A DNA stretch of 64,000 nucleotides from Mesorhizobium onobrychidis. Lineage in GTDB: Bacteria; Pseudomonadota; Alphaproteobacteria; Rhizobiales; Rhizobiaceae. Shown piece by piece: positions 6,357 through 23,972 of this stretch. The notes beneath the pieces were generated by a model that had not been told where the DNA came from, searched no databases, and saw nothing but the letters and a program-made list of their open reading frames with translations. The stretch covers positions 6,119,501-6,183,500 of the forward strand of contig NZ_CP062229.1 in the NCBI RefSeq assembly GCF_024707545.1, read 5' to 3'. The position numbers and the translations under genes are program-made. Position 1 is the stretch's first letter. Each line of letters starts with the position of its first letter.

Positions 6357-6478
6357 TGTGGGGAAATCCTCGGTCGATGCGCAAATCAGCGGCGTTGCTG
6401 TTCAGCGGGCATAAGGTCACACATCGATCGGAATGAAAATGGCCGGTGCGCGATGCCCGGCACCGAGCAAGACCACAA

Positions 6479-7639: not shown

Positions 7640-7759
7640 TGCAGTGCACAATAGGTGCACGAGCCTGTCAAACAATCCGCTTCTTGTTGGGCCAGAACGG
7701 TGCGCAATGGCCGTTGGCAGGTATCCGCCGCAAAGGGCCGACCCGCTAAATCTGTTTCA

Positions 7760-7972
7760 TCAGCCGCAGCCGATCTGCCCGGTGCCCGTCTCGTAGGCAG
7801 TGCGGCGGGCCGTCAGCCTGAACGGTACGTCGCCGAGTTCACGTTCCGACATGGTGTCGAGCACAGGATGCGACAGCGGATCGGTCGCCCATCGGGTGGT
7901 CTCGCTTTGAGGCGACCGGCTTTGCCGCGAGCCGGGAACAGAAAAGACCCTGAGCAGTGATAAAATCTTCAT
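7760..7972 (-). CDS. small hypothetical protein with a DPLSHP...MSERELGDVPF motif
   Basis: A 70-residue protein starts at an ATG (7972) preceded by a good Shine-Dalgarno (GAGGAAA). Its centre reads WATDPLSHPVLDTMSERELGDVPF, a signature I associate with short uncharacterised proteins widespread in Rhizobiales, related to the DUF1127-type small proteins. It has no membrane segment or cysteine pair beyond one C-terminal Cys. It is divergent from the LysR gene at 8070, with about 100 bases between the starts, so LysR control is possible. Function unknown. Confidence 0.6.
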   Translation of the reverse strand: MKILSLLRVFSVPGSRQSRSPQSETTRWATDPLSHPVLDTMSERELGDVPFRLTARRTAYETGTGQIGCG

Positions 7973-8069
7973 CGGATTTTCCTCTACAGGTCTGCTTACT
8001 TCCTTTAAATCTGCCATTCCGCCTTATGTTTCAATTGAGATTTCAACCGTGCCGGTTTAGAAAAACTGT

Positions 8070-8984
8070 ATGGTTATGCTGAACCGCGTCCACCTCAACG
8101 GCCTGCGCGCCGTGGAAACCGTCGCCCGCCTGGGATCGCTTTCGGCTGCGGCGGCCGAACTCAACGTGTCCGCCAGCGCCGTCAGCCAGCAGGTCAAGCG
8201 AACGGAAGAGCAACTCGGCCAAGCCTTGTTCGAACGAACGGCGAGTGGTCTCTTGCTGACCGAATTCGGCACCGCCTTCACCGCGCGTCTCGGGGCAGGT
8301 TTCCGCGAACTCGCGCAAGCCGTGGCGCTCGCCGACGAGGCCTCCGAATGCACGCTGGTGGTTTCGGTGGCGCCGGCTTTCGCGTCGAAGTGGCTGCTGC
8401 CTCGACTGTCACGTCACTTCGCCCGGCACCCGAATGTGCTTTTGCGCATCGACGCCTCGGTGCGGCTTGCCGATCTCGACCGCTCGGACATCGACATCGC
8501 CATCCGGCTTGGCGACGGGACGTGGCCGGGTGCGCGGGCGGAATTGCTGCTGGCGCAGGAGGTCTTCCCGGTCTGCGCCCCGGTGATCGCCGACAAACTG
8601 AAATCGATCGAAGATCTTGCCCTGACCTGCGCGATCACCGACGAACGGGCGATGATCAGTTGGGAAAGCTGGTTCGAGGCCGCCGGCGTTAAGCCGATCA
8701 CCTTCCTCAAAGGCGCGCGATTCACCGACCCGATGCTGTGCCTGGAATCGGCGATCGCCGGCCACGGCGTCATGCTCGGCTGGCAATTGCTGGCTGCCGA
8801 CGCGCTGGCCGACGGCCGCCTTGTCGCCCCCTTCGGCGTCCGCGCCCAGAGCGGGCTCGGCTATTGGCTGGTGACCTCCGCCAACAAGACCGACAGCCGC
8901 AAGGTCAGGGATTTCAAGATCTGGATCCGCGAAGAGATAGCGGCGACCATGGCGCAATTCGGGTCGCTCAGCAGCGCGAACTGA
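8070..8984 (+). CDS. LysR family transcriptional regulator, GcvA-like
   Basis: The protein of 304 residues has an N-terminal winged helix-turn-helix (LNGLRAVETVARLGSLSAAAAELNVSASAVSQQVKRTEEQLG) at residues 8-50 and a substrate-binding domain with the GcvA-subgroup pattern (LVVSVAPAFASKWLLPRLSRHF, then DLDRSDIDIAIRLGDG). GcvA-like regulators respond to small metabolites and usually act on a divergent gene, here the small protein at 7760-7972. A second in-frame ATG at 8076 is equally acceptable as the start. The aminopeptidase gene begins 84 bases downstream on the same strand and could also be a target. Confidence 0.88.
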   Translation: MVMLNRVHLNGLRAVETVARLGSLSAAAAELNVSASAVSQQVKRTEEQLGQALFERTASGLLLTEFGTAFTARLGAGFRELAQAVALADEASECTLVVSVAPAFASKWLLPRLSRHFARHPNVLLRIDASVRLADLDRSDIDIAIRLGDGTWPGARAELLLAQEVFPVCAPVIADKLKSIEDLALTCAITDERAMISWESWFEAAGVKPITFLKGARFTDPMLCLESAIAGHGVMLGWQLLAADALADGRLVAPFGVRAQSGLGYWLVTSANKTDSRKVRDFKIWIREEIAATMAQFGSLSSAN

Positions 8985-9068
8985 ACCTGCCGCCTGCAAT
9001 CGCGGTGGAAAGGAGAGCAGTGCGGGTCTATGTAAGAACCAGACTCCCACATCGCGACAGGCAGGATC

Positions 9069-10325
9069 ATGACCACACATTCGCGCGGCGTTTCCGCAAC
9101 GATCGACCCGGTGAAGCTCGACAGGCTGGCGGAAGTCGCCATCAAGGTCGGGCTGCAATTGCAGCCAGGGCAGGATCTGGTGCTGACATCGTCGATCGCA
9201 GCACTGCCTTTGACGCGACGGATCGTCGAGCATGCCTACAAGGCCGGCGCCGGCCTGGTGACGCCGATCTTCAACGACGACGAGATGACGCTGGCACGCT
9301 TCCGCTATGGCGCTGACGCCGGCTTCGACCACGCCGCCGGCTGGCTCTATGAGGGCATGGCGAAGGCCTTCGCCAACAATGCGGCGCGGCTTGCCGTGCG
9401 CGGCGAGGATCCGTCGCTGCTGTCGGCGCAGGATCCGGCGAAAGTGGCGCGCGCCAACAAGGCGAACTCGGTCGCCTACCAGCCGGCGCTGGAAAAGATC
9501 ACCGGCTTCGACATCAACTGGAACATCGTCGCCTACCCCGACCTGGCCTGGGCCAGGCAGGTATTTCCCGGCAATACCGACGATGTTGCGGTCGCAAAAC
9601 TCGCCGACGCCATCTTTGCCGCCTCACGGGTTGACGTGGACGACCCGATCGGCAACTGGACAGCACATAACGCCGCACTTCGCAGCCGCACCGAATGGCT
9701 GAACGGCCATAATTTCCATGCGCTGCATTTCACCGGACCCGGCACCGACCTGACCGTCGGGCTGGCCGATGGGCATGAGTGGATGGGCGGCGCCTCGACC
9801 GCCAGGAACGGCATCACCTGCAATCCGAACATCCCGACCGAGGAGGTTTTCACCACACCGCATGCAAGGCGCGTCGAGGGCCATGTGTCGAGCACCAAGC
9901 CGCTGTCCTATCAAGGCACGCTGATCGACGGAATTGCGGTGCGTTTCGAGGCAGGCCGCATCGTCGAGGCGAAGGCTAGCCGCGGCGAGGATGTGCTGAA
10001 AAAAGTGCTCGATACCGATGAAGGCTCACGCCGGCTCGGTGAGGTCGCGCTGGTGCCGCATTCCTCACCGATCTCGAAGAGCGGTCTGCTGTTCTTCAAC
10101 ACGTTGTTCGACGAGAATGCCGCCTGCCATATCGCGCTCGGCCAGTGCTATTCGAAGTGCTTCGTCGACGGTGCCTCGCTCAGCCAGGACGAGATCGCGG
10201 CGCGTGGCGGCAACAAGAGCTTTATCCATATCGATTGGATGATCGGTTCGGACAAGATCGACATCGACGGCGTCGGCAAGGACGGCAGCCACGTACCGGT
10301 CATGCGTAACGGCGAGTGGGCGTAA
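9069..10325 (+). CDS. aminopeptidase, peptidase family M29
   Basis: This 418-residue protein matches the M29 metallo-aminopeptidases (AmpS/PepS/aminopeptidase T), two-metal exopeptidases that release N-terminal residues in the cytoplasm. Recognisable blocks are the N-terminal LDRLAEVAIKVGLQLQPGQDL, the central FTGPGTDLTVGLADGHEWMGG, NIPTEEVFTTPH with a metal-binding Glu, and EVALVPHSSPISKSGLLFFNTLFDENAACHIALGQCY, which carries several conserved metal ligands. A C-terminal HIDWMIGS segment completes the site. Length is normal. The start ATG at 9069 follows GGCAGGATC. A DUF488 gene starts 44 bases downstream and may be cotranscribed. Confidence 0.93.
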   Translation: MTTHSRGVSATIDPVKLDRLAEVAIKVGLQLQPGQDLVLTSSIAALPLTRRIVEHAYKAGAGLVTPIFNDDEMTLARFRYGADAGFDHAAGWLYEGMAKAFANNAARLAVRGEDPSLLSAQDPAKVARANKANSVAYQPALEKITGFDINWNIVAYPDLAWARQVFPGNTDDVAVAKLADAIFAASRVDVDDPIGNWTAHNAALRSRTEWLNGHNFHALHFTGPGTDLTVGLADGHEWMGGASTARNGITCNPNIPTEEVFTTPHARRVEGHVSSTKPLSYQGTLIDGIAVRFEAGRIVEAKASRGEDVLKKVLDTDEGSRRLGEVALVPHSSPISKSGLLFFNTLFDENAACHIALGQCYSKCFVDGASLSQDEIAARGGNKSFIHIDWMIGSDKIDIDGVGKDGSHVPVMRNGEWA

Positions 10326-10369
10326 GGAGCCGCCAACAACCGTCATGGCGGCCAACCCCGGAGTTGGCA

Positions 10370-10726
10370 ATGAAACTCGATATCAAGGTCAAGCGCATCT
10401 ACGAGCCGCCCTCGCCTGGCGATGGGCAGCGGGTGCTCATAGACCGCGTATGGCCGCGCGGCATCCGCAAAGAAGACGCCGCGCTGACGCTATGGCTGAA
10501 GAACCTCGCGCCAAGCGATGAATTGCGCAAATGGTTCGGCCACGAGCCGACACGCTGGATGGAATTCCAGCAGCGCTATCGCGGCGAGCTCGATAGGAAC
10601 AGCGATGCGGTCGGCCAGTTGCGCGCCCTGCTCGACAACGGCCGGGTGACGCTGCTCTACGGCGCCCAGGACGAGCTGCACAACAACGCAGTGGCTTTAG
10701 CTGACTATCTCAGCCTAAAGGGCTGA
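10370..10726 (+). CDS. DUF488 family protein
   Basis: The 118-residue protein carries the DUF488 signature: IDRVWPRGIRKEDA at residues 24-37, WLKNLAPSDELRKWFGH at 42-58, then FQQRYRGEL and a GRVTLLYGAQDELHNNA segment. The function of the family is not established. Members are small soluble cytoplasmic proteins often near stress or redox genes. The ATG at 10370 begins exactly where the family begins (MKLDIKVKRIYEPP). An upstream in-frame ATG would overlap the preceding stop codon and add unconserved residues. Confidence 0.85.
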   Translation: MKLDIKVKRIYEPPSPGDGQRVLIDRVWPRGIRKEDAALTLWLKNLAPSDELRKWFGHEPTRWMEFQQRYRGELDRNSDAVGQLRALLDNGRVTLLYGAQDELHNNAVALADYLSLKG

Positions 10727-10776
10727 GGCGGCGCGCTCTGCCGGCCGTTCGCCGGTATAGCGGTGCTTTTTCGATA

Positions 10777-11316
10777 TCAACCTCGCGGGGCAGCAGTCTT
10801 TGCGTTCACCCTCTCAAGCAACGCTAGTAATCCCTTTAGAATTTCGATTGGCGATGGCGGGCAGCCCGGAATGTGCAGATCGACAGGCAGCACCTCCGAC
10901 ACGCCGCCCACGACTGCATAACTCCCGGCGAAACAGCCACCGTTCCTGCCGCAGTCGCCAAGCGCGACCACCCATTTGGGATTGGGAGTTGCGTCATAAG
11001 TCCATTTCAGTGCCTCGCGCATGTTTTTGGTGACCGGCCCTGTGACAAGCAGCACATCGGCATGGCGCGGCGACGCGACGAACCGGATTCCGAAGCGTTC
11101 GACGTCATAGAAGGCGTTGTTGAGCGCATGCATTTCGAGTTCGCAGCCGTTACAGGAACCAGCGTCGACCGCCCGGATCGACAGGCTGCGGCCCAGTCGC
11201 TTGCGGGCAGCGCCGTCTAGCCCGCGCGCGAGTTCGTCAATCGCCGTCTGGCTCGCCTTGGGCGGACGCTCTGTGAGAGGGAGCCGTGTCAGGCCTTCGA
11301 AGAGGTGCTTGCGCAT
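10777..11316 (-). CDS. hyfI: NuoB/HyfI-like iron-sulfur small subunit of an Ehr complex
   Basis: This is the small subunit of a group 4 hydrogenase-type complex (179 residues), homologous to NuoB, HycG and HyfI. The four cysteines for the proximal N2-type [4Fe-4S] cluster are all present: Cys55 and Cys58 in SCNGCE, Cys122 in GDCGRNGGC, and Cys152 in GCPPSP. The cluster should therefore be intact even though its partner HyfG has lost the NiFe ligands. It is the last gene of the minus-strand operon that begins at 18297, starting 11 bases after hyfG stops. It should sit on the cytoplasmic face of the membrane, bound to HyfG and HyfC. Confidence 0.9.
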   Translation of the reverse strand: MRKHLFEGLTRLPLTERPPKASQTAIDELARGLDGAARKRLGRSLSIRAVDAGSCNGCELEMHALNNAFYDVERFGIRFVASPRHADVLLVTGPVTKNMREALKWTYDATPNPKWVVALGDCGRNGGCFAGSYAVVGGVSEVLPVDLHIPGCPPSPIEILKGLLALLERVNAKTAAPRG

Positions 11317-11327
11317 GGCGGAATGCC

Positions 11328-12920
11328 TTAGAGATCGTGACCGGAGTAGGAGCAGTTGAACGATTTGTTGCAGAGCGGAAAGTCGGCGACGATGTTGCCC
11401 TCAATGGCCGCTTCAAGCAGCGGCCATTGAAACCATGACGGGTCACGCAGGTGACAGCACTCGATCATACCGCCTTCGCCAATGCGCAGCCAGGCCAGAA
11501 TGTCGCCCCGGAACCCCTCGACCAGCGCCATGCCTTCACACGGCCCGCCTGTCTTGGTGACGCCTGTCTGGGCAACGCTCGCCCCGGCGACATCGACGCG
11601 GATCGGGCCGCCAGGCAGCCTTTGAAGGATCTGCTCGGTCAGCGATAAGCTCTGCTCGACCTCGCGGATGCGGATCCAGACGCGCGCATTCACGTCGCCC
11701 TCCTGGAGGAGAGGGACGTCGAAGGCGAGTTCGTCATAAGGCGGGTAGCCTGGGCTGCGCCGCGCATCGAACTCTCGGCCGGAGGCGCGGCCGACATAAC
11801 CGCCCGCTGCGTATTGCCGGACAAGGGCCGGCTTGAGCCGACCGGTCGCGACGGTCCGGTCCTGCAGCGACGCCGTGTTGTCGTAGAGTTCGACCAAATG
11901 AGGAAACCGCTGCCTGATCTCCGTGACCACAGACCGGACCGCGGCCGTCCCCTCTTCGCTCAGGTCGCTTGCCACCCCGCCAGGCACGATGCGGTCGCGC
12001 ATCAGGCGATGGCCGAAGGCCGCATCGCTGGCACGCAAGACGCGTTCGCGCAGCACGCCGCAATGGGCATGCATGAGCACGAAGGCGGCGTCATTGCAGA
12101 TGGCGCCGATATCGCCGAGATGGTTGGCAAGACGCTCGAGTTCCGCCATCAGCGCCCGCAGCCAGACGGCACGCAAGGGCACTTCGACGCCGAGCGCCGC
12201 TTCGACCGCGCGAGCAAAGGCCAGCGAATACGCCACGGTGCTGTCGCCGGACGTCCTCCCCGCCAGTTTGGCCGCGCGCTCGACAGGCGAACCTGCCATC
12301 AGGCCTTCTATGCCCTTGTGCACGTAGCCGAGACGCTCTTCCAGCCGGACAACTATTTCGCCGCTTGCCGTGAAGCGAAAATGCCCCGGCTCGATGATGC
12401 CGGCATGCACGGGCCCGACCGGGATCTGGTGCAGGCTTTCGCCTTCCGCGGGAAGGAAGCGGTAAGAGGCCATGGCTGGCGCATGAGCCGGCGCTGCTGA
12501 TGCTTCCGCCGCCAATGCCCCCGCTGCCAGGGGATGACTGACGCCCCATTGGCCGTGATCGAGCCAGCGTCGTGTATCCGGAAGTCCTTGCGGCAGAAGC
12601 CCGAACAGGTCCGCGGCGGCGCGCTCGAGGCGCAGTGCCGGCGGATGCCGCTGGCCGACCGATGGGTAGCGGCCGCCGGCGCATTTCAGGCTGATGACAC
12701 CGATGTCTCGAACCGCGTCGAGAAGCGCCATGTGGACGGTGTCCGGTTCGGCCCAAAGACCGAGCAGGCTCCAGTGGCCCGCGGCAAGCTGCTCGACGGC
12801 AAGGTTCCAGATTTTCGGAGCAACCACGGCGCGTCGCCAGGGAGCGTGCTGTTCGACAGGACGGCCCGCCTCGATGAGGTCGGTCAGCGCGGGCATCTTT
12901 CTTTTGCTCATCCGCTTCAT
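11328..12920 (-). CDS. hyfG: HyfG/NuoCD-like large subunit lacking NiFe-site cysteines (Ehr complex)
   Basis: The 530-residue protein fuses a NuoC-like N-terminal domain (GGRYPSVGQRHPPALRLERAAADLFGL, about residues 82-108) to a NuoD/hydrogenase-large-subunit domain (RLGYVHKGIEGLM onward, residue 196). In true [NiFe] hydrogenases the first ligand pair lies in RxCGxC; here the same site reads RTSGDS (residues 222-227), with both cysteines replaced by serine. The second pair, normally DPCxxCxxH or R near the C-terminus, is replaced by DFPLCNKSFNCSYSGHDL, a C-x5-C arrangement. No NiFe cofactor is expected. The start ATG at 12920 overlaps the hyfF stop as ATGA, a sign of translational coupling. 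Confidence 0.9.
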   Translation of the reverse strand: MKRMSKRKMPALTDLIEAGRPVEQHAPWRRAVVAPKIWNLAVEQLAAGHWSLLGLWAEPDTVHMALLDAVRDIGVISLKCAGGRYPSVGQRHPPALRLERAAADLFGLLPQGLPDTRRWLDHGQWGVSHPLAAGALAAEASAAPAHAPAMASYRFLPAEGESLHQIPVGPVHAGIIEPGHFRFTASGEIVVRLEERLGYVHKGIEGLMAGSPVERAAKLAGRTSGDSTVAYSLAFARAVEAALGVEVPLRAVWLRALMAELERLANHLGDIGAICNDAAFVLMHAHCGVLRERVLRASDAAFGHRLMRDRIVPGGVASDLSEEGTAAVRSVVTEIRQRFPHLVELYDNTASLQDRTVATGRLKPALVRQYAAGGYVGRASGREFDARRSPGYPPYDELAFDVPLLQEGDVNARVWIRIREVEQSLSLTEQILQRLPGGPIRVDVAGASVAQTGVTKTGGPCEGMALVEGFRGDILAWLRIGEGGMIECCHLRDPSWFQWPLLEAAIEGNIVADFPLCNKSFNCSYSGHDL

Positions 12921-14365
12921 CCCAGGATGGTCGCGACATGCTGGAACCACGTGACCAGAGGTGCCGGCAGGTAGATGCCGGCGCCAAACACCAGGGCCAG
13001 GTGGGAATACATCGGCACGTAGGATGCCTCGACGGGCGCGGTGCCGCCGCGCGGCTCGCCGAAGGCGACGCCAGTCAGCCGCAGCAGCAGGGCGCCGAAG
13101 GCGATGAGAAGCCCGAACACCAGTGGGATCGCCAGAAGCGGCTGCCTCGCAAAGGTCGAGCTGACGACCAGGAATTCGCTCATGAAGATGCCGAGCGGAG
13201 GCAGGCCGGCAATGGCAACGACGCCGATGACGAGCCCCCAACCGAGTCCGGGATGCGTTTCCGTCAGCCCTCTGATGTCGGCGATTTTTTGTGTTCCCTT
13301 GACCTGCGCGATGTGCCCGACCGCGAAGAAGATCGCCGACTTGGTCAGGCTGTGCATGACCATGTGCAGCAGGCCGGCGAAGTTCGCGAGCGGGCCGCCC
13401 ATGCCGAACGCGAAGACGATGATGCCCATGTGCTCGATCGAGGAGTATGCGAACAGGCGTTTGATGTCGCGGCGGCGGTAAAGCATGAAGGCCGCGAAGA
13501 TGAGCGAGGTGAGCCCCATCGCCACCATCAATGGTCCCGGGGCTATCGCCTCCGGGCTTGCGGCGAGCAACAGCTTGAAGCGCAGCACGGCATAGAGCGC
13601 GACGTTCAGCAACAGGCCCGACAGCACCGCCGAGATCGGCGTCGGGCCTTCGGCATGCGCATCGGGCAGCCAGGCATGCAAGGGCGCGAGGCCGACCTTG
13701 GTGCCGTAGCCGAGCAGCAGAAAGACGAAGGCGACGTTAAGCAAAGCCGGGTCGAAATGCGCCGCCTGTTCGATGAGCACCGTCCAGACCATGGCGTCGG
13801 TGCCCTCGCCGACGACCGGTTGTGCAGCCATGTAGACGAGGATGGTGCCGAACAGCGCAAGCGCGATGCCGACGCTTCCCAGGATGAAATATTTCCAGGC
13901 GGCCTCCAGCGCTTCATGCGTGCGATAGATGCCGACCATCAGCACGGTGGTCAGCGTCGCAAGCTCCACCGCCACCCACATCAAACCGATATTGTTCGAC
14001 ACGAAGGCGAGGTTCATGCCGAACATCATGATCTGGTACATCGCGTGATAGAATCGCAGGTTCGGCGCGGTCAGCCGGCCGGTCTCCAGTTCGTGCGCAA
14101 TATAGGAGGCGCTGAACACGCTGGTGGTGAAGCCGACGAATGTGTTGAGCACGATGAAAACGATGTTGAGATCGTCGACGAGCAGGTATTGGCCTGGCTG
14201 CGGCCGATCGGTGACGAACAGCGACAGCGCGGCGAGCAAGGTCAGGAAGCTCGCGGCGACATTCAGGCCTGCCGACATCCGATAATTCGGCAGCGCCGCC
14301 AGAAGTGCGGCCGCGCCGACGGGTATCAGCAGGATGGCGGCCACCGCGTCGAAGGGAGCGGTCAA
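12917..14365 (-). CDS. hyfF: HyfF/NuoL-NuoN-like proton-translocating membrane subunit
   Basis: An antiporter-type subunit of 482 residues with about fourteen membrane helices. Conserved features include the charged NNIGLMWVAVELATL helix, a WLPDAHAEGPTPISAVLSG loop typical of the Mrp/NuoL/NuoM/NuoN fold, and KRLFAYSSIEHMGIIVFAFG. A lysine in GYGTKVGLAPLHAWLP and Glu in VAVELATL are candidate proton-path residues. The start is a TTG at 14365 that overlaps the hyfE stop (TTGA), matching the overlapping arrangement of the rest of the operon. A longer in-frame reading upstream covers hyfE in another frame and lacks family similarity. Confidence 0.88.
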   Translation of the reverse strand: MTAPFDAVAAILLIPVGAAALLAALPNYRMSAGLNVAASFLTLLAALSLFVTDRPQPGQYLLVDDLNIVFIVLNTFVGFTTSVFSASYIAHELETGRLTAPNLRFYHAMYQIMMFGMNLAFVSNNIGLMWVAVELATLTTVLMVGIYRTHEALEAAWKYFILGSVGIALALFGTILVYMAAQPVVGEGTDAMVWTVLIEQAAHFDPALLNVAFVFLLLGYGTKVGLAPLHAWLPDAHAEGPTPISAVLSGLLLNVALYAVLRFKLLLAASPEAIAPGPLMVAMGLTSLIFAAFMLYRRRDIKRLFAYSSIEHMGIIVFAFGMGGPLANFAGLLHMVMHSLTKSAIFFAVGHIAQVKGTQKIADIRGLTETHPGLGWGLVIGVVAIAGLPPLGIFMSEFLVVSSTFARQPLLAIPLVFGLLIAFGALLLRLTGVAFGEPRGGTAPVEASYVPMYSHLALVFGAGIYLPAPLVTWFQHVATILG

Positions 14366-15027
14366 CGGCGTTCTCCCCTGTAGTCGTCGAGCGCGCCGAC
14401 ATCCACCGAGTCGAACCGCTCGCGGATGCGGAACAGGAAGACACCGATGACGATGAAGGCGATCAGGATCGAGAAGGCGACGCTGATCTCGACGACCAGC
14501 GGCATGCCCTTGGCGCCGGTGGCGGCCAGCACCAGGCCGTTCTCGAGCGACATGAAGCCGACAACCTGGCTGACGGCGTTGCGGCGGGTGACCATCACCA
14601 GCAGCCCCAGCAATATTATCGACAGCGCGAAGGCCAGGTCTTCGCGGGCGAGCGGGTCGGCTTCGGGCGTGACCCGCAGCATCAGCACCATCGACAGAGC
14701 CACCAGACCGATGCCGGCAAGCATGGTCGGACCGATGCCGACGGCGGTCTCGATGTCGCGATGGATGCCGAGCCGCAGAATGATGCGATGAAGCCCGACG
14801 GGAATGACGATCGCCTTGAAGATGAGGGCGATCGCCGCGGTGACATAAAGGTGATGAGCGTCCTGGATATAGGCCTGCCAAGCCACGGACAGAGCGAGGA
14901 CGACCGCATGAAGCGCAAATACGTTGATCAGCGCAAATAGGCGATCCTGGTACAGCATCATGAAACTGACCAGCACCAGGCCGCCGGCGAGCAGATGAGC
15001 GATGTCAAAGGTGAGACCGTTCATCAA
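14362..15027 (-). CDS. hyfE: HyfE-like membrane subunit (NuoK-like)
   Basis: A 221-residue integral membrane protein with about seven helices, matching HyfE of hydrogenase 4 and, in its C-terminal part, NuoK of complex I. The stretch LLGLLVMVTRRNAVSQVVGFMSLENGLVLAATGAKGMPLVVEISVAF contains the conserved Glu in SLENG, a residue used in proton transfer in NuoK-type subunits. It ends in a hydrophilic tail (RIRERFDSVDVGALDDYRGERR). It overlaps hyfC upstream by 4 bases and hyfF downstream by 4 bases, so it is the central member of one transcript. Confidence 0.88.
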   Translation of the reverse strand: MMNGLTFDIAHLLAGGLVLVSFMMLYQDRLFALINVFALHAVVLALSVAWQAYIQDAHHLYVTAAIALIFKAIVIPVGLHRIILRLGIHRDIETAVGIGPTMLAGIGLVALSMVLMLRVTPEADPLAREDLAFALSIILLGLLVMVTRRNAVSQVVGFMSLENGLVLAATGAKGMPLVVEISVAFSILIAFIVIGVFLFRIRERFDSVDVGALDDYRGERR

Positions 15028-15980
15028 AGGCTCCGTGAGACGAACAGCAAGAGCGTGCCAAGCAGTGCCAGCATGAGGGCAGCGCCGAGAAAATCCGGGA
15101 CGCGGAAAACGCGCATCTTGGCGATGGCAGTCTCGAACGCGGCAAGCAGAATGCCGCAGGCGGCAAGTTTGCCGATATAGACAACGACGCCCAGAGCATA
15201 AGACGCTGGTCCGGCTCGAGCCGTCACCAGTCCCCAGGGAATGAAGACGCAGGAGATCAGCGACACATAGAGCAGAAGCTTGAGGAAGGCGGCGAGCTCG
15301 ATCATCGCCAAATGGCGGCCGGAATATTCCAGCACCATCGCCTCGTGAACCATGGTGAGCTCAAGATGCGTCGCCGGATTGTCGACCGGTATGCGGGCGT
15401 TTTCGGCGAGCGCCACAATGACGAGGGCGATCATCGACATGCCGAGCGATACCCGCAGGCCGACCTCCGGCGAGCCCATGACGGCGGCGACGGTGGACAG
15501 TTGCGTCGCGCCGGCGACGAGCGCCAGGCTGAACACGATCAAAAGCATGGCGGGCTCGGCCAACGAGGCGATCATCACCTCGCGGCTTGCGCCGATGCCG
15601 CCAAAGCTCGTGCCGACGTCCATCCCCGCCAGCGCCAAGAAGAACCGCGCACTGCCAAGCAGAGCGACGATGGCTATCAGGTCGGCGGTCCAACTGAAGG
15701 TGAGGCCGGTTGCGAATGTCGGGATGAGCGCGGCGGCAACCCAGGTGGCGGCAAAGATCAGGTAGGGTATGACCCGAAACAGCCAGGATGCGTTGTCCGC
15801 CAGGACGACCTCCTTGCGCATCAGCCGCAGGAGATCGCGGTAGGGCTGGATCAGCGAAGGTCCCTGGCGGCGCTGCAGTCTCGCCTTCACCTTGCGCACG
15901 AAGCCAGTCAGAAGCGGTGCCAGCAAAAGCACCAGCATCATCTGCGCGCCCTGGACGGCCAGTTCAAGGATCAGGGCCAT
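15024..15980 (-). CDS. hyfC: HyfC/NuoH-like membrane anchor subunit
   Basis: The protein of 318 residues with about eight helices is homologous to HyfC, HycD and NuoH, the subunit that joins the peripheral arm to the antiporter modules. Recognisable parts are the first helix followed by RKVKARLQRRQGPSLIQPYRDLLRLMRKE (the cytoplasmic loop that contacts the small subunit) and the acidic ENARIPVDNPATHLELTMVHEAMVLEYSGRHLAMIELAAFLKL segment, which in NuoH lines the quinone/proton channel. Both are well conserved here. It overlaps hyfB by 10 bases upstream and hyfE by 4 bases downstream. Confidence 0.92.
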   Translation of the reverse strand: MALILELAVQGAQMMLVLLLAPLLTGFVRKVKARLQRRQGPSLIQPYRDLLRLMRKEVVLADNASWLFRVIPYLIFAATWVAAALIPTFATGLTFSWTADLIAIVALLGSARFFLALAGMDVGTSFGGIGASREVMIASLAEPAMLLIVFSLALVAGATQLSTVAAVMGSPEVGLRVSLGMSMIALVIVALAENARIPVDNPATHLELTMVHEAMVLEYSGRHLAMIELAAFLKLLLYVSLISCVFIPWGLVTARAGPASYALGVVVYIGKLAACGILLAAFETAIAKMRVFRVPDFLGAALMLALLGTLLLFVSRSL

Positions 15981-17989
15981 AGCGCGAGCACCAGAAGCAA
16001 GGTGACGAGGTAGAGAAAGACCAGGGTCAGATAGCGCCGGATGGTCAGGAACTGCAGATGGTTCAGCTTCTCGGTCGCAAACCTGACAGCGCCAGCGATC
16101 GGCTGGTAAAAAGTCTCCCAGACCACATCGTGGATTTCCACGGTGAGGCGTGCCGGAGCGGTGGCGCCCGGTGGCGGCATCTCCACCTTTTCACGGGCAC
16201 GGAACGCGAATGTGCCGAAGACGCGGCGAATGGGCTGCGCGAAACTGACGGCCGTGTATTGCGCGGCCGGCGTGACGTCCGGGAAGCCGCAGCCCCATGC
16301 GGGACCACGACGCAGGGCATGCGAGGCGAAGCGGTGAATGACGAACGCCGCAAGCGATGCGGAGATTGCAATGAACACAAACACCAACAGGCCGTTGTAG
16401 GAGCTTCGGCTCTCGGCGATCGGCACGATCGACAGCCAGGGCTGGGCCATCTGCACCGGCATGCGGTTGCCGATGAGCGAAAGCGTCACCGGTGAAAGAC
16501 CGTCTATGACCAGGCCCGGCAGGATGCCGGCAAGCAGGCAAAGGGCCGCGAGAATGAACATCGCCGCCAGCGAGTAGCGATCGACCTCCTGCGCCTGCCC
16601 CACCGCCGTGGAGCGTGGCCGGCCGAGAAATGTGATACCGAACGCCTTCACGAAACAGGCCGCGGCCAGCGCCGCCGACAGCGCAAGCAGGCCACCGACA
16701 GCGGGCACCATCACCTTCAGGCCCCATTGCGGCAGATCGGGGCTCTGCAATATGGCTTGGAAGGCCAGCCATTCGGAGACGAAGCCGTTGAAGGGCGGAA
16801 GTGCGGAGATCGAAACGCAGCCGACGAGAAAGACAAAACTGGTCAGCGGCATGCGATGGATAAGACCGCCCAGCTTCTCCATGTTGCGCTCGCCGGTCGC
16901 CGTCAGCACCGCGCCCGCGCCGAAAAACAGCAGGCTCTTGAAAAAGGAATGGTTGAGAACGTGAAACAGCGCAGCGGTGAGCGCCAGTGCTGCGGCCGAC
17001 GGCATCGCGTTGGCCTTGAAGGCGAGCGCGAGGCCAAGGCTAACGAAGATGACGCCGATGTTTTCGATGGTGCTGTAGGCAAGGAGCCGCTTGAGGTCCT
17101 TCTCCATTAAGGCATAGAGAATCCCGAGCACCGCCGTGAGGCCGCCAAGGAAAAGCACAACGACGCCAGACCACCATGCCGGCTCACCGAGCAGGTCGAA
17201 AATGACGCGTATGAAGCCATAGACGGCGACTTTCGTCATGACGCCGCTCATCAGGGCCGAGACATGGCTTGGCGCAGCCGGATGAGCAAGCGGCAGCCAG
17301 ACGTGGAGCGGGACAAGGCCGGCCTTAGAGCCGGCGCCGAGCAGCATGAGAACCAGGGTGGCGGCAGCGACGAACCGGCTTGGCTCGGCGGCACGCATCG
17401 CATCGAATGTGTAGGTTCCGTCCGGTCCGGCCAGCAGGCCGAAAGCGAGCAGCAGCGCCAAGGTGCCGAAGCTCGCCATCACCAGATAGATGTAGCCTGC
17501 CCGCGTATTGTCCTGTTCGCGATGGTGCGCCATGACGAGCGCCCACGAGGCGAGCGACATGAACTCCCAGGACAGCAGGAAGGTGAAGGCGTCGTCGGCC
17601 AGCACGACAAGATTCATGCCGGCAAGAAAGGCCGGGAAAAACGGCAGTACCCGGTGCGGCGCAGGTTCGTGATGGCCGTAGCCAAGCCCATAGAGGCTGG
17701 CCACAGTGCCTCCCAGATTGACGACGACCAGAAAGAATGCCGACAGCGCGTCGAGACGGAAATGAGCGCCGATCCACGGCAGCCCGAGTGGTAGCGTAAC
17801 AGTGGATACGCCGGCAGGATCGCCTGTCAGCCCCGCTGCGGCTATCGCGAACATGACTGCCGAGATAGCAAGGGTTACGCCATAGACCAGATACGTTGCC
17901 GAGCCGCGCCGACTGATAGCGACGGCCACTATGGCGGTTCCCAAAAACGCGGCGACACCCCACAAAAGAAGGGCAACGATCGACGTCAC
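15971..17989 (-). CDS. hyfB: HyfB/NuoL-like proton-translocating subunit
   Basis: This 672-residue antiporter-type subunit has roughly sixteen helices plus an extended C-terminal hydrophilic and helical region (WGCGFPDVTPAAQYTAVSFAQPIRRVF and beyond), as in HyfB and HycC. The core has LLSWEFMSLASWALVMAHH with the conserved Glu, GAGSKAGLVPLHVWLPLAHPAAPSHVSALMSG with the key Lys, and KRLLAYSTIENIGVIFVSLG. It is the first structural gene of the operon, overlapping the XRE regulator stop by 4 bases. With HyfF it gives the complex two predicted ion-pumping modules; no HyfD-type third one is present. Confidence 0.92.
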   Translation of the reverse strand: MTSIVALLLWGVAAFLGTAIVAVAISRRGSATYLVYGVTLAISAVMFAIAAAGLTGDPAGVSTVTLPLGLPWIGAHFRLDALSAFFLVVVNLGGTVASLYGLGYGHHEPAPHRVLPFFPAFLAGMNLVVLADDAFTFLLSWEFMSLASWALVMAHHREQDNTRAGYIYLVMASFGTLALLLAFGLLAGPDGTYTFDAMRAAEPSRFVAAATLVLMLLGAGSKAGLVPLHVWLPLAHPAAPSHVSALMSGVMTKVAVYGFIRVIFDLLGEPAWWSGVVVLFLGGLTAVLGILYALMEKDLKRLLAYSTIENIGVIFVSLGLALAFKANAMPSAAALALTAALFHVLNHSFFKSLLFFGAGAVLTATGERNMEKLGGLIHRMPLTSFVFLVGCVSISALPPFNGFVSEWLAFQAILQSPDLPQWGLKVMVPAVGGLLALSAALAAACFVKAFGITFLGRPRSTAVGQAQEVDRYSLAAMFILAALCLLAGILPGLVIDGLSPVTLSLIGNRMPVQMAQPWLSIVPIAESRSSYNGLLVFVFIAISASLAAFVIHRFASHALRRGPAWGCGFPDVTPAAQYTAVSFAQPIRRVFGTFAFRAREKVEMPPPGATAPARLTVEIHDVVWETFYQPIAGAVRFATEKLNHLQFLTIRRYLTLVFLYLVTLLLVLALWP

Positions 17990-18297
17990 GGCAGACTCCC
18001 GCCGATCTCGGCTTCCGCTTCGTCGACGCCGGAAATCCTGGCCGGATTGAGGCCCGCCTTCAGCCGCACGCCCCGTCCGCCAGCCTGGCTGGTCGCGCCT
18101 TCCCCGATCAACTCGATGCCAGCAGCCTCAAGTGCTGCAATCAATTTCATCAACGAATCGACATTGCCCCGGATCATCGCCTCGCTGGCTTCCATGCGCT
18201 GAATTGTCGGGACCGAAAGGCCGGACAACTCGGCAAGCCTGCGCTGGTCGATACCGAGCAGCGCCCTGGCGGCGCGCAATTGTGGTGCAGTTATCAC
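17986..18297 (-). CDS. XRE-type helix-turn-helix regulator at the head of the Ehr operon
   Basis: The protein is 103 residues. The N-terminal half is a lambda-repressor-like HTH (LRAARALLGIDQRRLAELSGLSVPTIQRMEA, residues 7-37). The remainder is a short variable tail with VRLKAGLNPARISGVDEAEA. It starts with GTG at 18297 and its last 4 bases overlap hyfB, so it is cotranscribed with the complex. A perfect palindrome lies 23-39 bases upstream (18320-18336), the expected position for an autoregulatory operator. A regulator translationally coupled to an Ehr complex is unusual and suggests autogenous control of the whole operon. Confidence 0.85.
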   Translation of the reverse strand: MITAPQLRAARALLGIDQRRLAELSGLSVPTIQRMEASEAMIRGNVDSLMKLIAALEAAGIELIGEGATSQAGGRGVRLKAGLNPARISGVDEAEAEIGGSLP

Positions 18298-18319
18298 CGG
18301 CGACCCTTCGGCTCAGCTT

Positions 18320-18336
18320 TGAGACATGATGTCTCA
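18320..18336. promoter_or_regulatory. candidate operator of the XRE regulator
   Basis: The sequence TGAGACATGATGTCTCA is a perfect 7-bp inverted repeat, TGAGACA and TGTCTCA, around a 3-base centre. It is 23 bases upstream of the XRE start codon and is the only strong dyad in the region. XRE repressors bind such short dyads as dimers, so autoregulation of the xre-hyf operon is the simplest reading. Inferred from position and symmetry only. Confidence 0.6.
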
Positions 18337-18727
18337 GCGTTGCAGCATACATTGAAATGTGCTACCGTCAATTACTGATGTGTGAGGCATCTATTTGCCG
18401 ACGACCCAGCGACCCCCTTGGATGAGATGACGGGCGAACATCCGGGCGTTCCCCGCAATCAAACCAAGATGGCGGGGCGGCTGACATAGGAACTTGGCCA
18501 TAGGTCGTGGCAGCGCGGCCCGCGCTGAAGATATCGCAACCAGCGGCGAATACTCTCCTCTGGACCATCGCCGGACTCCGGAAGCAGTCCAAGATGCTCT
18601 CGACATGGAAGACGCAGCGGCTGCACCATCTCCTTAGGCAAAGAGTGTAGCCACCCTGCAACGGCTGCTCACGCGTGCCGTTACTCAGTCGCCAGCGCGA
18701 TGGCCGGGCGCGGCACCGCGAATCTGC
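18337..18727. other. non-coding gap with no convincing gene
   Basis: This 390-base stretch lies between the promoter region of the Ehr operon and the 3' end of the ABC ATPase gene. Minus-strand frames are open between about 18391 and 18661, and one ends with a plausible protein tail (FARHLIQGGRWVVGK). None has a recognisable domain, a Shine-Dalgarno or a consistent frame, so it could be a decayed gene or chance. I call no gene here. Confidence 0.5.
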
Positions 18728-19795
18728 TCAGGCGATACGCAATTCCGTGGCCGCATCGAAGAGGTGCACCTTGCCCGGCAGCACCGAAAGATTGATCGCC
18801 GTGCCGGCGTTGCGGCGCTCGTCACGCGGCACCACGGCGACGGCGTCGTATCCCGCCACGCGTAAATGAATCTGGACATCCGCGCCGGTCGTTTCGGACA
18901 GCACGACCTCGCCCTTGATCTCACCCGCATCTGAAATGCCGAGATCATTTGGCCGGACGCCCATGATGACCTTTTGGCCTGGCTTCGCCTTGATCTGCGG
19001 TGAGAGGCCGATCGACACGCCTTCGGCGACGAAGCGAGGACTGCCGCCCGCGGTCTCGACAGCGCCAGCGATGAAATTCATTGAAGGCGAGCCGATGAAA
19101 TCAGCGACATATTTCGAGTTCGGGCGCTCGTAGACCTCGTCGGGCGTGCCGATCTGCATGATCCTGCCGGCGTGCATCAGCACGATCTTGTCAGCCATCG
19201 TCATCGCCTCGATCTGGTCATGGGTGACGTAGATCGTGGTCGTGCCGAGACGATTGTGGAGTTGGCGGATTTCCACGCGCATATGAGTGCGCAGCTTCGC
19301 GTCGAGATTGGAGAGCGGCTCGTCGAAAAGGAAGACGGCGGCATTCCGCACCATGGCGCGGCCCATGGCGACGCGCTGGCGCTGGCCGCCCGACAGTTCC
19401 TTGGGATAGCGGCCGAGGTAGGGCGTGAGATTCAGGATTTCCGCCGCCCATTCGACCTTCTTCCTGATCTCGGCCTTTGGCACTTTCGCCACTTCGAGAC
19501 TGAAGCCGATATTGTCGAACACCTTCATTGTCGGATAGAGCGCGTAGTTCTGGAACACCATCGCGATGTCGCGATCGCGCGGGTGAACGTCATTGACCCG
19601 CCTGTCGCCAATCAACAGATCGCCGTTGGTCACACTTTCGAGCCCTGCTGTCATGCGCAGGAGCGTGGTCTTTCCGCAGCCCGACGGCCCAAGAAGGACG
19701 ACGAATTCGCGGTCGGCAATGCCGAAGGAGATATCCTTCATCACCTCGACATGCCCGAAATTCTTGGCGATGTTCCTATATTCTACGGTAGCCAT
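18728..19795 (-). CDS. ABC transporter ATP-binding protein, UgpC/MalK type
   Basis: The 355-residue ATPase of a carbohydrate importer has an N-terminal nucleotide-binding domain with Walker A GPSGCGKTT (about residues 38-46), the signature LSGGQRQRVAMGRAM, Walker B AVFLFDEP and the H-loop TIYVTHDQ. A C-terminal OB-type MalK regulatory domain follows (FIGSPSMNFI, VIMGVRPNDLGI). It is the last gene of the operon that begins at 23943. The start ATG at 19795 gives MATVEYRNIAK, which aligns with the family; a longer in-frame reading upstream is unconserved. It should energise the two permeases encoded upstream. Confidence 0.92.
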   Translation of the reverse strand: MATVEYRNIAKNFGHVEVMKDISFGIADREFVVLLGPSGCGKTTLLRMTAGLESVTNGDLLIGDRRVNDVHPRDRDIAMVFQNYALYPTMKVFDNIGFSLEVAKVPKAEIRKKVEWAAEILNLTPYLGRYPKELSGGQRQRVAMGRAMVRNAAVFLFDEPLSNLDAKLRTHMRVEIRQLHNRLGTTTIYVTHDQIEAMTMADKIVLMHAGRIMQIGTPDEVYERPNSKYVADFIGSPSMNFIAGAVETAGGSPRFVAEGVSIGLSPQIKAKPGQKVIMGVRPNDLGISDAGEIKGEVVLSETTGADVQIHLRVAGYDAVAVVPRDERRNAGTAINLSVLPGKVHLFDAATELRIA

Positions 19796-19826
19796 TCGCT
19801 CTCTCCAGAAGCCCGGATTCGGGTCG

Positions 19827-20552
19827 TCAGTATTTCTGCCTTGTCGGCGTGATGACGATTTCCTGCACGAGGGCGTTCTGCGGCATCTGGTAGGTGTGCA
19901 GCATGAGGTCAGCGACGTGCTCGGGCCCAATCCCGCCGCCGATCTTGAGCTTGTTAGCCTTGTAGTTGGCGAGCGTCTGCGGATCGAGGACGCCGCTCAG
20001 AACTTCGGTTTCGATCACCCCGGGCGAAAGCACAACCACGCGGACGTCATAGTCGGAAAGATAGTCGCGCAGCGATTCCGACACGGCGTGAACGAAGAAT
20101 TTTGTCCCGCAGTAAACCGTATGATCCGGATAGACCTTCCGGCCAGCGATCGAACTCATCATGAACAGCGTCCCATGACGGCGCTCCATCATGCCCGCCA
20201 TCACGGCGTGGACCGAGTTCAGCACGCCTTTCGTGTTGATGTCGATCATCTCGTCCCATTCCTCGGGCGGCTGGCGGCCTATGTCGGCAAGGCGCGCGAT
20301 GCCGGCATTGGCAAAGAGCATGTCGACCGGTCCGTATTCGGCTTCCGCCCCCTTCACGGCGGCTGCGATTGCGGCGCGGTCCCGGACATCGACCTGCCGA
20401 GCCATGCTGTCGGGCAGATTCAGCGCCTCCATGCGCTCCAGACGGCGGGCCATCATAAGAACAGGATGGCCGGCGCGCGAAAACACCTTGGCGACCGCCT
20501 CGCCGATACCAGAACTGGCTCCTGTCACTGCTACGAGCTGTTTTCCAGCCAT
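19827..20552 (-). CDS. SDR family oxidoreductase within the polyol/sugar ABC operon
   Basis: A classical SDR of 241 residues with TGASSGIG at 10-17, NAG at 82-84, Ser133/134 and the catalytic Tyr147/Lys151 (VYCGTK). The region PGVIETEVLSGVLDP and the YdfG-like layout suggest oxidation of a sugar alcohol or hydroxy acid. The gene sits between the binding protein and the ATPase of an ABC importer, so it probably performs the first oxidation of the imported compound. A perfect 14-bp hairpin separates it from the binding-protein gene upstream. The ARRLERME segment after strand 2 has basic residues, which would favour NADP. Confidence 0.88.
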   Translation of the reverse strand: MAGKQLVAVTGASSGIGEAVAKVFSRAGHPVLMMARRLERMEALNLPDSMARQVDVRDRAAIAAAVKGAEAEYGPVDMLFANAGIARLADIGRQPPEEWDEMIDINTKGVLNSVHAVMAGMMERRHGTLFMMSSIAGRKVYPDHTVYCGTKFFVHAVSESLRDYLSDYDVRVVVLSPGVIETEVLSGVLDPQTLANYKANKLKIGGGIGPEHVADLMLHTYQMPQNALVQEIVITPTRQKY

Positions 20553-20580
20553 TGCTTTTCCTCTTGGGAATTGTCGATAC

Positions 20581-20611
20581 CCGGGGTGGCGGCCTTAGGC
20601 CGCCACCCCGG
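20581..20611 (-). promoter_or_regulatory. intercistronic stem-loop after the binding-protein gene
   Basis: A perfect 14-bp inverted repeat (arms 20581-20594 and 20598-20611, CCGGGGTGGCGGCC in the left arm) closes on a 3-base TTA loop. It lies 5 bases beyond the stop codon of the binding-protein gene. No T-run follows on the minus strand, so it is more likely a 3'-end-protecting or partially attenuating structure than a full terminator. Such structures commonly raise binding-protein mRNA relative to downstream genes. Confidence 0.75.
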
Positions 20612-20616
20612 AACAT

Positions 20617-22122
20617 TCAGCCCTTGGCGACGAGATCGTCGACCTGGGTTTTCAGGGCGTCGAGCGACTCCTTGGCCGAGCCCGACTGGCCGGCGAAGTA
20701 TTTGCCCAGTGCAACCGGGATCATATCGCTCGAGAGTTCTGCCCATGCCGGCAGGTCGGGCTCGGATCCCATGTAGTTGGCGATGGTGTCGCGCACGACC
20801 GGCAAATGGCGGGTCGTGCCGGCGCCGACACGCGCATTGGCCAGCACGCGCGGATCGTCATAGACGCTGGTGCGCGTTGGCCCCGTACCGCCGCCCAGAA
20901 CGGTTATCAGCGCCTGGGTATCGGCTGAGGTCGCCCACTGCATGAAAATCCAGGCGGCGTCCGGGCTCTTCGAGTATTTCGACACCGCGAGCGAAGAACC
21001 GCCCTGGTGACCAACGCCCGGAATTTCGCCGAATCCGGTCTGCTCGACGGTGCGCAGCGTGGCGGCAGGTTTCGGCGGAACCATCGCTTCCATCAGACCG
21101 GAGACCTTGGAAGCCTTGGGATCGTCGAAGAACGGGAAGAATTCGCCCCAAGACAGCATCGAGGCCGCGACGCCCTGGCCGACCGACTGGCCCTCGCCAT
21201 CCCATGTCCAGCCGTCGACGCCGGGCGGCATCGTCGCCTTGAGCTTGTCCCAGTAGGCCATGGCGGCCAAGCCAGCTTCGTCATTGCCGGTGAATTTGCC
21301 GTCGGGGCCGAAAATCGAACCGCCATGGCCCCAAAGCCACGCCGTCCAATCGCATTCGAGGCTGTAATGGCCCGATTTCATCTGGCCGCTGGTGCCGTAC
21401 ATGTTCGGGCCCTTGGCGTCGGTGATCGCCGCAGACGCCTTCAGCAAATCGTCCAGCGTGGCCGGAGGCGGCAGCTTGAGCTCGTCCCAGACGTCCTTGC
21501 GGTACTGCATGATGAAGATCGGGATGTCATAGGGCACGCCGACCATGCGGTCCTCGTACATGGCGATACCGTCGACGAGCGGCTTCAGGAAGTCGTCGAT
21601 GTTGTAATTCGGCATTGCCAGATCGGCGTTCTTGAGCTGCTCACGCGGGTCGAAGACGTCCTGGCTGAAGCTCGCCGCCCAGCTCTGGTCGATATAGTAG
21701 AGGTCGTAAGTGCCGAGGCTCGACGCCACGTCGAGCGTCAGCTTCTGCAGCACTTGCTCGAGCGGCAGCACTTCGATCTCGACCTTGATGCCGGTAGCCT
21801 CCTCGAAATACTGCTTGAGCTGCGTGGCGATGGCATTCGACGGCGGCGTCGATTCGGTGGCGAGACGAAGGGTCGTTCCGGCAAAGGGCTTGCCGACATC
21901 CGAGAGCCACTTGGTGATTTCGGCGCTGGGCTTTAGTTCCTGTTCCTGAGCCGATGCCTGGCTGATGCCGTAGAACGGACGTCGTCCCAGGCCCATGCCG
22001 AGCGCGCCGGCACCGAGGCCGAGAATGCTTGCTGCGCGAAGAAACGAGCGCCGGTCCATCTGTCCGCGAACGAAGCGATCGGTGACAGAGGCAAGATGCG
22101 CCTTTCTGATGCTGTCTTTCAT
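20617..22122 (-). CDS. extracellular solute-binding protein, family 1 (Tat-exported)
   Basis: The 501-residue periplasmic binding protein of the importer carries a twin-arginine signal (MDRRSFLRAASILGLGAGALGMGL, about residues 23-46), so export of the folded protein is predicted. The mature part has the family 1 pattern: GTTLRLATESTPPSN, FEEATGIKVEIEVLPLEQVLQKLTLDVASSLGTYDLYYIDQSW and an LEAMVPPKPAATLRTVE lobe boundary. It is longer than MalE-type proteins (about 400-430 residues) but similar to polyol-type binding proteins. Ligand unknown; the adjacent kinase, dehydrogenase and SDR genes point to a sugar or polyol. Confidence 0.9.
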   Translation of the reverse strand: MKDSIRKAHLASVTDRFVRGQMDRRSFLRAASILGLGAGALGMGLGRRPFYGISQASAQEQELKPSAEITKWLSDVGKPFAGTTLRLATESTPPSNAIATQLKQYFEEATGIKVEIEVLPLEQVLQKLTLDVASSLGTYDLYYIDQSWAASFSQDVFDPREQLKNADLAMPNYNIDDFLKPLVDGIAMYEDRMVGVPYDIPIFIMQYRKDVWDELKLPPPATLDDLLKASAAITDAKGPNMYGTSGQMKSGHYSLECDWTAWLWGHGGSIFGPDGKFTGNDEAGLAAMAYWDKLKATMPPGVDGWTWDGEGQSVGQGVAASMLSWGEFFPFFDDPKASKVSGLMEAMVPPKPAATLRTVEQTGFGEIPGVGHQGGSSLAVSKYSKSPDAAWIFMQWATSADTQALITVLGGGTGPTRTSVYDDPRVLANARVGAGTTRHLPVVRDTIANYMGSEPDLPAWAELSSDMIPVALGKYFAGQSGSAKESLDALKTQVDDLVAKG

Positions 22123-22181
22123 TGTCTACTCCTCCGGTTTAATTCGCGATTTTCACAAGGCTGCGAATTCGAGCCTCCCAT

Positions 22182-23054: not shown

Positions 23055-23055
23055 T

Positions 23056-23943: not shown

Positions 23944-23972
23944 GCGTTCCTCCCGAACCGCTTCGTTTTGCG

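Follow-up and report, generated by a model that had tools for sequence, protein, structure and literature searches.

An operon for a hydrogenase-4-like complex without NiFe ligands in Mesorhizobium onobrychidis, most probably of the energy-converting hydrogenase-related type

We analyzed a 64,000-nucleotide stretch of the Mesorhizobium onobrychidis genome (NCBI RefSeq assembly GCF_024707545.1, contig NZ_CP062229.1, positions 6,119,501 to 6,183,500), here called the window. Seven genes, xre-hyfB-hyfC-hyfE-hyfF-hyfG-hyfI, lie on its minus strand between positions 10777 and 18297 and are joined by overlaps or short gaps. An earlier note on this DNA had read these positions as a Hyf-like set, and our analysis bears this out. 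The encoded assembly is almost certainly an energy-converting hydrogenase-related (Ehr) complex derived from the group 4 [NiFe] hydrogenases. The closest named protein relatives of the window come from Mesorhizobium and its near kin, and the 7.5 Mb host genome also contains four ordinary NuoD genes, one HypD and one nifH.

The set is headed by xre (17986..18297), a small gene for a 103-residue XRE-type helix-turn-helix protein (Pfam HTH_3) whose stop overlaps the hyfB start by 4 bases. We searched 397 genomes at the level of the order, 53 of which carry HyfG, and compared 41 loci, namely the window and 40 fetched from the 52 other carriers. Relatives of xre occur at 28 of the 41 loci and stand immediately before hyfB in 27 of those 28. 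The hyfB gene (15971..17989) codes for a 672-residue antiporter-like subunit that matches the NCBIfam model of hydrogenase 4 subunit B above its cut-off (5.8e-272), and hyfC (15024..15980) for a 318-residue NuoH-like membrane anchor (Pfam NADHdh). The 221-residue membrane subunit encoded by hyfE (14362..15027) matches the NCBIfam hydrogenase 4 membrane subunit below the cut-off (1.8e-23). A second antiporter-like subunit, the product of hyfF (about 12917..14365), matches hydrogenase 4 subunit F above the cut-off (9.4e-278); its TTG start at 14365 is a predicted one, and we number HyfF residues from the codon at 14362. The last two genes are hyfG (11328..12920), identified by alignment to HycE and by Foldseek as encoding a 530-residue fused NuoC/NuoD-like large subunit without NiFe ligands, and hyfI (10777..11316), whose NuoB-like small-subunit product has the hydrogenase pattern of cysteines (CxxC, C, C) that binds a single [4Fe-4S] cluster.

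HyfG aligns with HycE, the large subunit of Escherichia coli formate hydrogenlyase (FHL), at E 2.6e-59 and 204 bits, or 284 bits with a family profile. A Foldseek search with a model of HyfG returned chain 7z0s_E first (TM score 0.83), which merely confirms HycE as the nearest relative. The model has a mean predicted local distance difference test score (pLDDT) of 80, and because residues 156-202 and 526-530 fall below 50 we leave the pocket geometry uninterpreted. At the site of the RxCGxC motif (RVCGIC in HycE), HyfG has R222-T-S-G-D-S227 (12240..12257, minus strand). The site of DPCxxCxxR is occupied by N522-C-S-Y-S-G-H-D529 (11334..11357, minus strand), with a C-terminus of F-N-C523-S-Y-S-G-H-D-L where HycE has L-D-P-C-Y-S-C-T-D-R and a stop one residue past D529. 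The four NiFe ligand positions are thus S224, S227, S524 and G527. The earlier note had described RTSGDS at residues 222-227, the loss of all NiFe ligands and a C-terminal C-x5-C in place of the second motif (DPCYSC in HycE), and each of these observations holds. The cysteine pair is C517-x5-C523, and both residues lie off the ligand positions; C517 is variable, and C523 is replaced by G, L, P or A in some relatives. Alignment with HycE, with FHL rows and with NuoD of the same genome likewise placed none of the four cysteines at the ligand positions.

Hydrogenase maturation cleaves a C-terminal peptide after the last ligand motif, and mature enzymes end there. HyfG has no such processing tail, whereas both FHL large subunits tabulated with it do. 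Judged by its sequence, HyfG is no longer able to hold or mature a NiFe site. The altered motif is itself conserved. R222, S224, G225, D226 and S227 are invariant at all 41 order-level loci, which together with the strong HycE match exceeds chance, and R-x-S-G-D is found in 179 of the 182 rows of a family alignment in which twice-fetched loci count twice and the four NuoD rows are left out. The exceptions are L101 (RTCGDS), L179 (RISADS) and L187 (RVAGDS), and L101 is the only row with a cysteine at a ligand position. The motif is conserved well outside Alphaproteobacteria. Among more distant loci, L194, L196 and L203 have R-x-A-G-D, L208 has RVSADS, and L209 has RSCGDS with one cysteine at the first position. 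In L192, L197, L219, L221 and the first operon of L220 the motif departs from RxSGD, and L219 keeps the third-position cysteine.

We then considered what the emptied pocket retains. Residues invariant across the 41 loci include H164, H172, E177, H180, H267, C275, N276, D277, E468, R471, D513, N518, N522, C523, Y525, G527 and D529, along with the five motif residues named above; H180, S227, C275 and C523 lose their invariance once distant rows are added. Part of the proton relay appears to be kept, because H172 aligns with the histidine of the HycE GPxH motif and R471 with canopy Arg478, whose role is discussed in the relevant passages of PMC9474812. D277 (12090..12092, minus strand) occupies in the HycE/Nqo4 alignment the position of Nqo4 D139, an aspartate of complex I. 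It is invariant in the wider rows as well, and the position is Asp in all four NuoD proteins of the genome and Phe in the two FHL rows. Since the NiFe ligands and the quinone residues of complex I are both absent while the pocket residues are conserved, the sequence comparison indicates that the HyfG site is a conserved third kind, neither a hydrogenase site nor a known quinone site. The large subunit at L210 (G439), a divergent Ehr member, retains RISGDS and has lost H172 and N276-D277.

The cluster-binding subunit gives a different picture. HyfI C55, C58, C122 and C152, the cysteines that the earlier note had listed correctly, are invariant at 41 of 41 loci. The CxxC spacing equals that of MbhJ and HycG, as seen in an ungapped match around CxxC, and is not the tandem-cysteine arrangement of complex I. 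The invariant cysteines with their true-hydrogenase spacing favour the view that a redox function is kept. In the membrane arm, the TM5 Glu, TM7 Lys, TM8 Lys and TM12 Lys of HyfB (TM, transmembrane helix) are all kept in our alignments. HyfC, whose best solved relative is FHL HycD (5e-42), has E193, D200, E207, E213 and E218 invariant in 40 of 40 rows. The claim that the proton-path residues are kept therefore stands for the charged positions of HyfB and the acidic residues of HyfC; it fails for HyfF, as set out below.

The distribution of the complex separates it from NiFe maturation. HypD was found in 33 of the 53 carrier genomes and not in the other 20; in the 45 high-quality genomes the numbers are 29 and 16. 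Because HypD was not found in those 20 carriers, the complex is probably retained where a NiFe enzyme cannot be matured. The absent ligands, the missing processing tail and this distribution of HypD identify the complex as Ehr rather than hydrogenase. In a tree of 80 rows (73 different), the 74 Ehr-type rows, HyfG among them, split from two FHL and four NuoD rows with support of 100/96, so the phylogenetic placement that the earlier note had proposed as a check puts HyfG outside both groups. The tree has few outgroups and flagged long branches, including Allomeiothermus and Caballeronia, and leaves out M. tuberculosis and archaeal Ehr. We also rejected the possibility that HyfG is a complex I paralogue, as the genome has four separate NuoD proteins with much higher scores against the NuoD family, and the quinone residues are absent from HyfG.

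A search at the level of the phylum matched 163 of 398 genomes at E 1e-40, complex I and FHL among them. By score, 20 genomes in that table fall with the window's clade (>700 bits) and 42 with a second group (460-600 bits), whose fetched members all lack the NiFe ligand set. The window's clade is mostly alphaproteobacterial, with a few rows labelled as beta- or gammaproteobacterial or as Terriglobia metagenome-assembled genomes (MAGs). The operon is also plasmid-borne, for example on pRL11 of Rhizobium johnstonii 3841 (RL_RS31230-31260). nifH scored above cut-off in 28 of 53 carriers vs 37 of 344 non-carriers (odds ratio 9.3), and at genus level in 12 of 20 that include carriers (for 10 of these, nifH and HyfG share a genome) vs 13 of 121 other genera. 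CoxL above cut-off, used as a contrast, showed no association (9/53 vs 47/344, p 0.53), and we rejected a link to carbon monoxide dehydrogenase. The nifH link is a correlation among related, non-independent genomes and not proof. Literature searches with six inferred R. johnstonii locus tags, and with hyfB, hyfF and hyfG combined with "rhizobi", gave no match for a published phenotype. A few terms searched in R. leguminosarum and Burkholderia main texts, with supplements outside the search, turned up nothing on the operon.

We compared the window complex to better-studied systems. Its XRE regulator sets it apart from the EHR of Mycobacterium tuberculosis, whose regulator we take to be of the ArsR type. 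The seven-gene EHR locus of M. tuberculosis (Rv0081-Rv0087) is also headed by a regulator gene, and excerpts on this EHR judge it not to be a hydrogenase, for want of maturation genes. Other excerpts report Ehr that lack the Ni and Fe ligands from Margulisbacteria, Nitrospira and ammonia-oxidising archaea. The passages on Ehr in PMC6349859, PMC10284858, PMC10432482 and PMC6728331, which in part relay Marreiros 2013, describe hydrogenase-like complexes whose function is at best suspected; this agrees with the earlier note, which had called the electron donor and acceptor unknown. The relevant passage of PMC6349859 suspects that Ehr couple a cytoplasmic redox reaction to charge translocation. 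Like these complexes, the window operon combines a NuoD/HycE-like subunit lacking the four NiFe cysteines with antiporter, NuoH-like and NuoB-like subunits. The Ehr label given in the earlier note is thus well supported by hydrogenase-4-like subunits, the lack of ligands and tail, and the regulator-headed gene set.

E. coli FHL-1 (PDB 7z0s) and Hyf provide the best solved relatives of HyfG, HyfB, HyfC and HyfI, and HyfI shares the hydrogenase-type cluster motif and the beta1-beta2 loop of FHL-1. Unlike FHL-1, the window operon lacks the NiFe ligands, the processing tail, the ferredoxin subunits, FdhF, HycH and HycI, and its complex has a canopy Asn for Asp and an extra antiporter, HyfF, with a TM8 Asn. 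A true FHL operon from Azospirillum argentinense Az39 has three ferredoxin-like genes inside or adjacent to it, together with hycH, hycI, fdhF and hyp genes, whereas the window operon has no ferredoxin-like genes. Group 4 [NiFe] hydrogenases also differ in their relation to HypD, which is present in the window's genome but not found in every carrier. Complex I (NuoB, C, D, H and L/M/N) has the same fold and proton arm, with D277 at the place of Nqo4 D139, but the window complex has no equivalents of His38 and Tyr87 or of the tandem cysteines, and its operon has no NADH module or NuoI. The MBS complex is similar in lacking NiFe and retaining a proximal [4Fe-4S] cluster. According to the passages of PMC7684303 that concern it, MBS receives electrons from ferredoxin via further clusters and uses the proximal cluster itself; its cluster motif is three residues shorter, one iron has no Cys ligand, and two of the four NiFe cysteines are left. 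Unlike MBS, HyfI has the full-length motif with four cysteines, and HyfG has none of the four NiFe cysteines.

The neighbourhoods of related operons added several observations. Fluoride riboswitches have been tied to formate hydrogenlyase in the older literature. We found 14 fluoride riboswitch matches over six loci, all within L197, L219 and L221 and none in L191, L192 or L220. One precedes the Hyf-like operon at L221:7040-7110, L197:8161-8231 and L219:6732-6805, with a NUDIX gene between in L219. Annotated neighbours are crcB, a CLC-type channel, diphosphatase, MutS and DUF190 in L221 and enolase and DUF190 in L219. These operons encode the same subunit kinds as the window, including a large subunit without the NiFe ligand set. 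They differ in a fused ferredoxin-HyfI, another gene order, and the lack of RxSGD and of H172 and D277 equivalents. Going by their ligand positions, the fluoride-island complexes, of which L219 keeps one Cys, should not be hydrogenases. We detected no fluoride riboswitch in positions 6000-24000 of the window, at seven loci of its clade or at seven beta/gamma loci, and set the fluoride link aside for the window's clade, since riboswitches occur only at the fused-ferredoxin loci.

Spermidine-synthase-like genes lie near the operon at 8 of the 41 order loci (four genera; L041 is a partial hit) and at 6 of 80 named loci (Mesorhizobium and Bradyrhizobium; L083 is apparently the same contig as L042). 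A beta type that differs from the alpha type by profile occurs near six loci, in Burkholderia, Paraburkholderia, Cupriavidus, Variovorax and two others. One such gene lies beside an Ehr operon at L196:5930-6763, with others elsewhere, and in Paraburkholderia it stands 20 bases before hyfB. The alpha-type query had no match in the window, where the beta type was not run; the genome was empty too, which shows nothing. Although it recurs elsewhere, we set this neighbour aside, as it has no alpha-type match in the window. Plasmid 3 of Variovorax PBL-E5 carries two different Ehr-like operons nearly adjacent to each other (L220:5466-12750 and 16162-23346), one with a ferredoxin-fused HyfI. In Pleomorphomonas-like genomes (L123:2-2535, L158:7467-10547), hypF-, hypC- and hypD-like genes, identified visually and from motifs (for HypD, from Pfam matches in relatives), lie directly upstream of the Ehr operon, and further upstream in L158 is a hydrogenase large subunit with intact ligands. 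Soluble-hydrogenase-like genes, identified by eye, are divergent beside the operon at L103:1-3183, a Terriglobia-labelled MAG whose contig may be misbinned, and at L071:837-2303 in an alphaproteobacterial genus. In the window, a gene for a DUF488 protein of the Pfam inactive N3 subclade (10364-10726) is convergent with hyfI.

We tentatively propose that the complex is a minimal oxidoreductase that translocates protons, is linked to ferredoxin and binds an acceptor, perhaps quinone, in the emptied pocket; we consider this mechanism possible rather than probable. A soluble ferredoxin-type protein encoded elsewhere would pass electrons to, or take them from, the one [4Fe-4S] cluster in HyfI. Distant relatives favour such a donor, as we infer from ferredoxin motifs fused to HyfI: an N-terminal CxxC-x2-C/V motif precedes the NuoB part in 117 of 120 listed relatives of Allomeiothermus HyfI, and Pfam Fer4 families were found in three of four motif-bearing proteins scanned. 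The other electron partner of the cluster would be a small molecule, donor or acceptor and most likely a quinone, bound in the former NiFe pocket. R222, S224, D226, N276, D277, H172, R471 and N522 are conserved, and their homologous positions suggest that they would line this pocket together. Protonation changes could then run through the acidic residues of HyfC to HyfB and perhaps HyfF; the residues for this path are present except at HyfF TM8, and the coupling is a proposal. In nitrogen-fixing hosts the complex may run backwards and use proton-motive force to produce reduced ferredoxin, a direction suggested by nifH co-occurrence. Identity and mechanism taken together make this our best explanation overall, although we rate it below an even chance.

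Several results weigh against this proposal. The operon encodes no ferredoxin-like input subunit (HyfA/HyfH, NuoI or MbhN), and none is conserved beside it; a NuoI-type two-cluster subunit is likewise neither in the operon nor recurrent nearby, the rest of the genome not having been searched. Flank clustering (41 order loci and 88 loci, in overlapping sets) showed no recurring donor gene, with open reading frames picked crudely enough that a gene may have been missed. The earlier statement that electrons and protons can still move, though not through NiFe, was right about NiFe and too generous about the rest, as the operon supplies no ferredoxin-like subunit. In HyfF, the TM8 lysine is replaced by N253 (codon 13604..13606, minus strand, by alignment), invariant in 41 of 41 loci; distant Ehr have Asn here in Burkholderia, Allomeiothermus and Methylocalor and Pro in Rhodococcus, and the true FHL HyfF of Azospirillum Az39 has Lys. 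The canopy aspartate of HycE, Asp529, which appears strictly conserved in the passages of PMC9474812 on it, is N522 in HyfG. This position is N in 181 of 182 rows, with one gap, and D in the two FHL and four NuoD rows. The proton-path claim fails at HyfF TM8, and the canopy is a further departure, in the large subunit. HyfG also has I176 and G225 at the positions of Nqo4 His38 and Tyr87, which we take to be the quinone residues of complex I. nifH above cut-off is missing in 25 of 53 carriers, and one genus provides 13 of the 28 that have it, leaving 15 of 40 without that genus. Finally, the four cluster cysteines are all absent from 71 of the 120 proteins listed as related to Allomeiothermus HyfI, and 3 more have kept only part of the set; the list is biased, because the query itself lacks them. 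The cluster-less proteins come mainly from Thermales (T-D-E-S, T-A-E-D) and a Gaiellaceae-like group (D-E-D-S). Cluster loss in these distant relatives implies that redox chemistry may not be the core task of the family, and it shows that the architecture can survive without the HyfI cluster. The cluster-less proteins in the list (P0123-P0242, relatives of L192:13272-14144) keep the N-terminal ferredoxin-like motif.

The last of these points also bears on an alternative in which proton-motive force moves ions or protons for pH or stress homeostasis, independently of redox or gated by it, and the HyfI cluster merely gates or stabilises the complex. Conserved replacements of the cysteines in that biased list, an Allomeiothermus HyfG likewise without NiFe ligands, the riboswitches before the L197, L219 and L221 operons and the lack of an electron-input subunit in the window operon speak for this model. 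In the window's own clade, however, the cysteines are invariant and fluoride riboswitches were not found in positions 6000-24000 of the window or at the seven loci sampled, and we consider it unlikely. A family-wide version, in which Ehr complexes lose cofactors stepwise (first NiFe, later the N2-type cluster) but retain the proton arm, is a little less likely still. Ion translocation under stress would be the shared task, the fluoride-regulon "formate hydrogenlyases" would be included, and in the rhizobial complex, as an intermediate stage, the cluster would gate transport and not drive it.

Catalysis at the HyfI cluster itself has a solved precedent in MBS, which works without NiFe through its proximal cluster in the account excerpted from PMC7684303, and the spread of RxSGD far outside Alphaproteobacteria is compatible with it. 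The shortened MBS motif with its Cys-free iron differs from the full spacing of HyfI, and MBS retains two NiFe cysteines to HyfG's none, which makes this reading improbable. We regard as equally improbable the docking of a second electron-input module encoded elsewhere, a formate dehydrogenase (FDH) or soluble hydrogenase, to form an FDH-Ehr or hydrogenase-Ehr chain. FDH-Ehr is proposed for Riflemargulisbacteria in a passage of PMC6349859; hyp genes neighbour the operon in genus g102, and in L158 they adjoin a HupL-like gene; and in L071/L159 a NiFe hydrogenase lies with hyp genes near the operon, these hydrogenases being recognised by ligand motifs only. Clustering of the loci showed no such module recurring next to the operon (the search did not extend to formate dehydrogenase genes elsewhere), and HypD was not found in 20 of the 53 carriers. 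An active [NiFe] hydrogenase with unusual ligands might be read from database names such as Ni,Fe-hydrogenase III large subunit and from the HypD gene of the host. With Ser or Gly at all four ligand positions, no tail and 20 of 53 carriers without detected HypD, this is exceedingly improbable, and we rejected it.

The complex belongs to the already described Ehr category. To that category our analysis adds the conserved motif, the HyfF and canopy changes, independence from HypD, the association with nifH, and relatives that lack the cluster or are linked to fluoride, none of which we claim to be unpublished. Ehr complexes are a living link between hydrogenases and complex I, and this operon is a free-standing example conserved across many families of rhizobia and other soil bacteria, including the well-studied strain R. 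johnstonii 3841.

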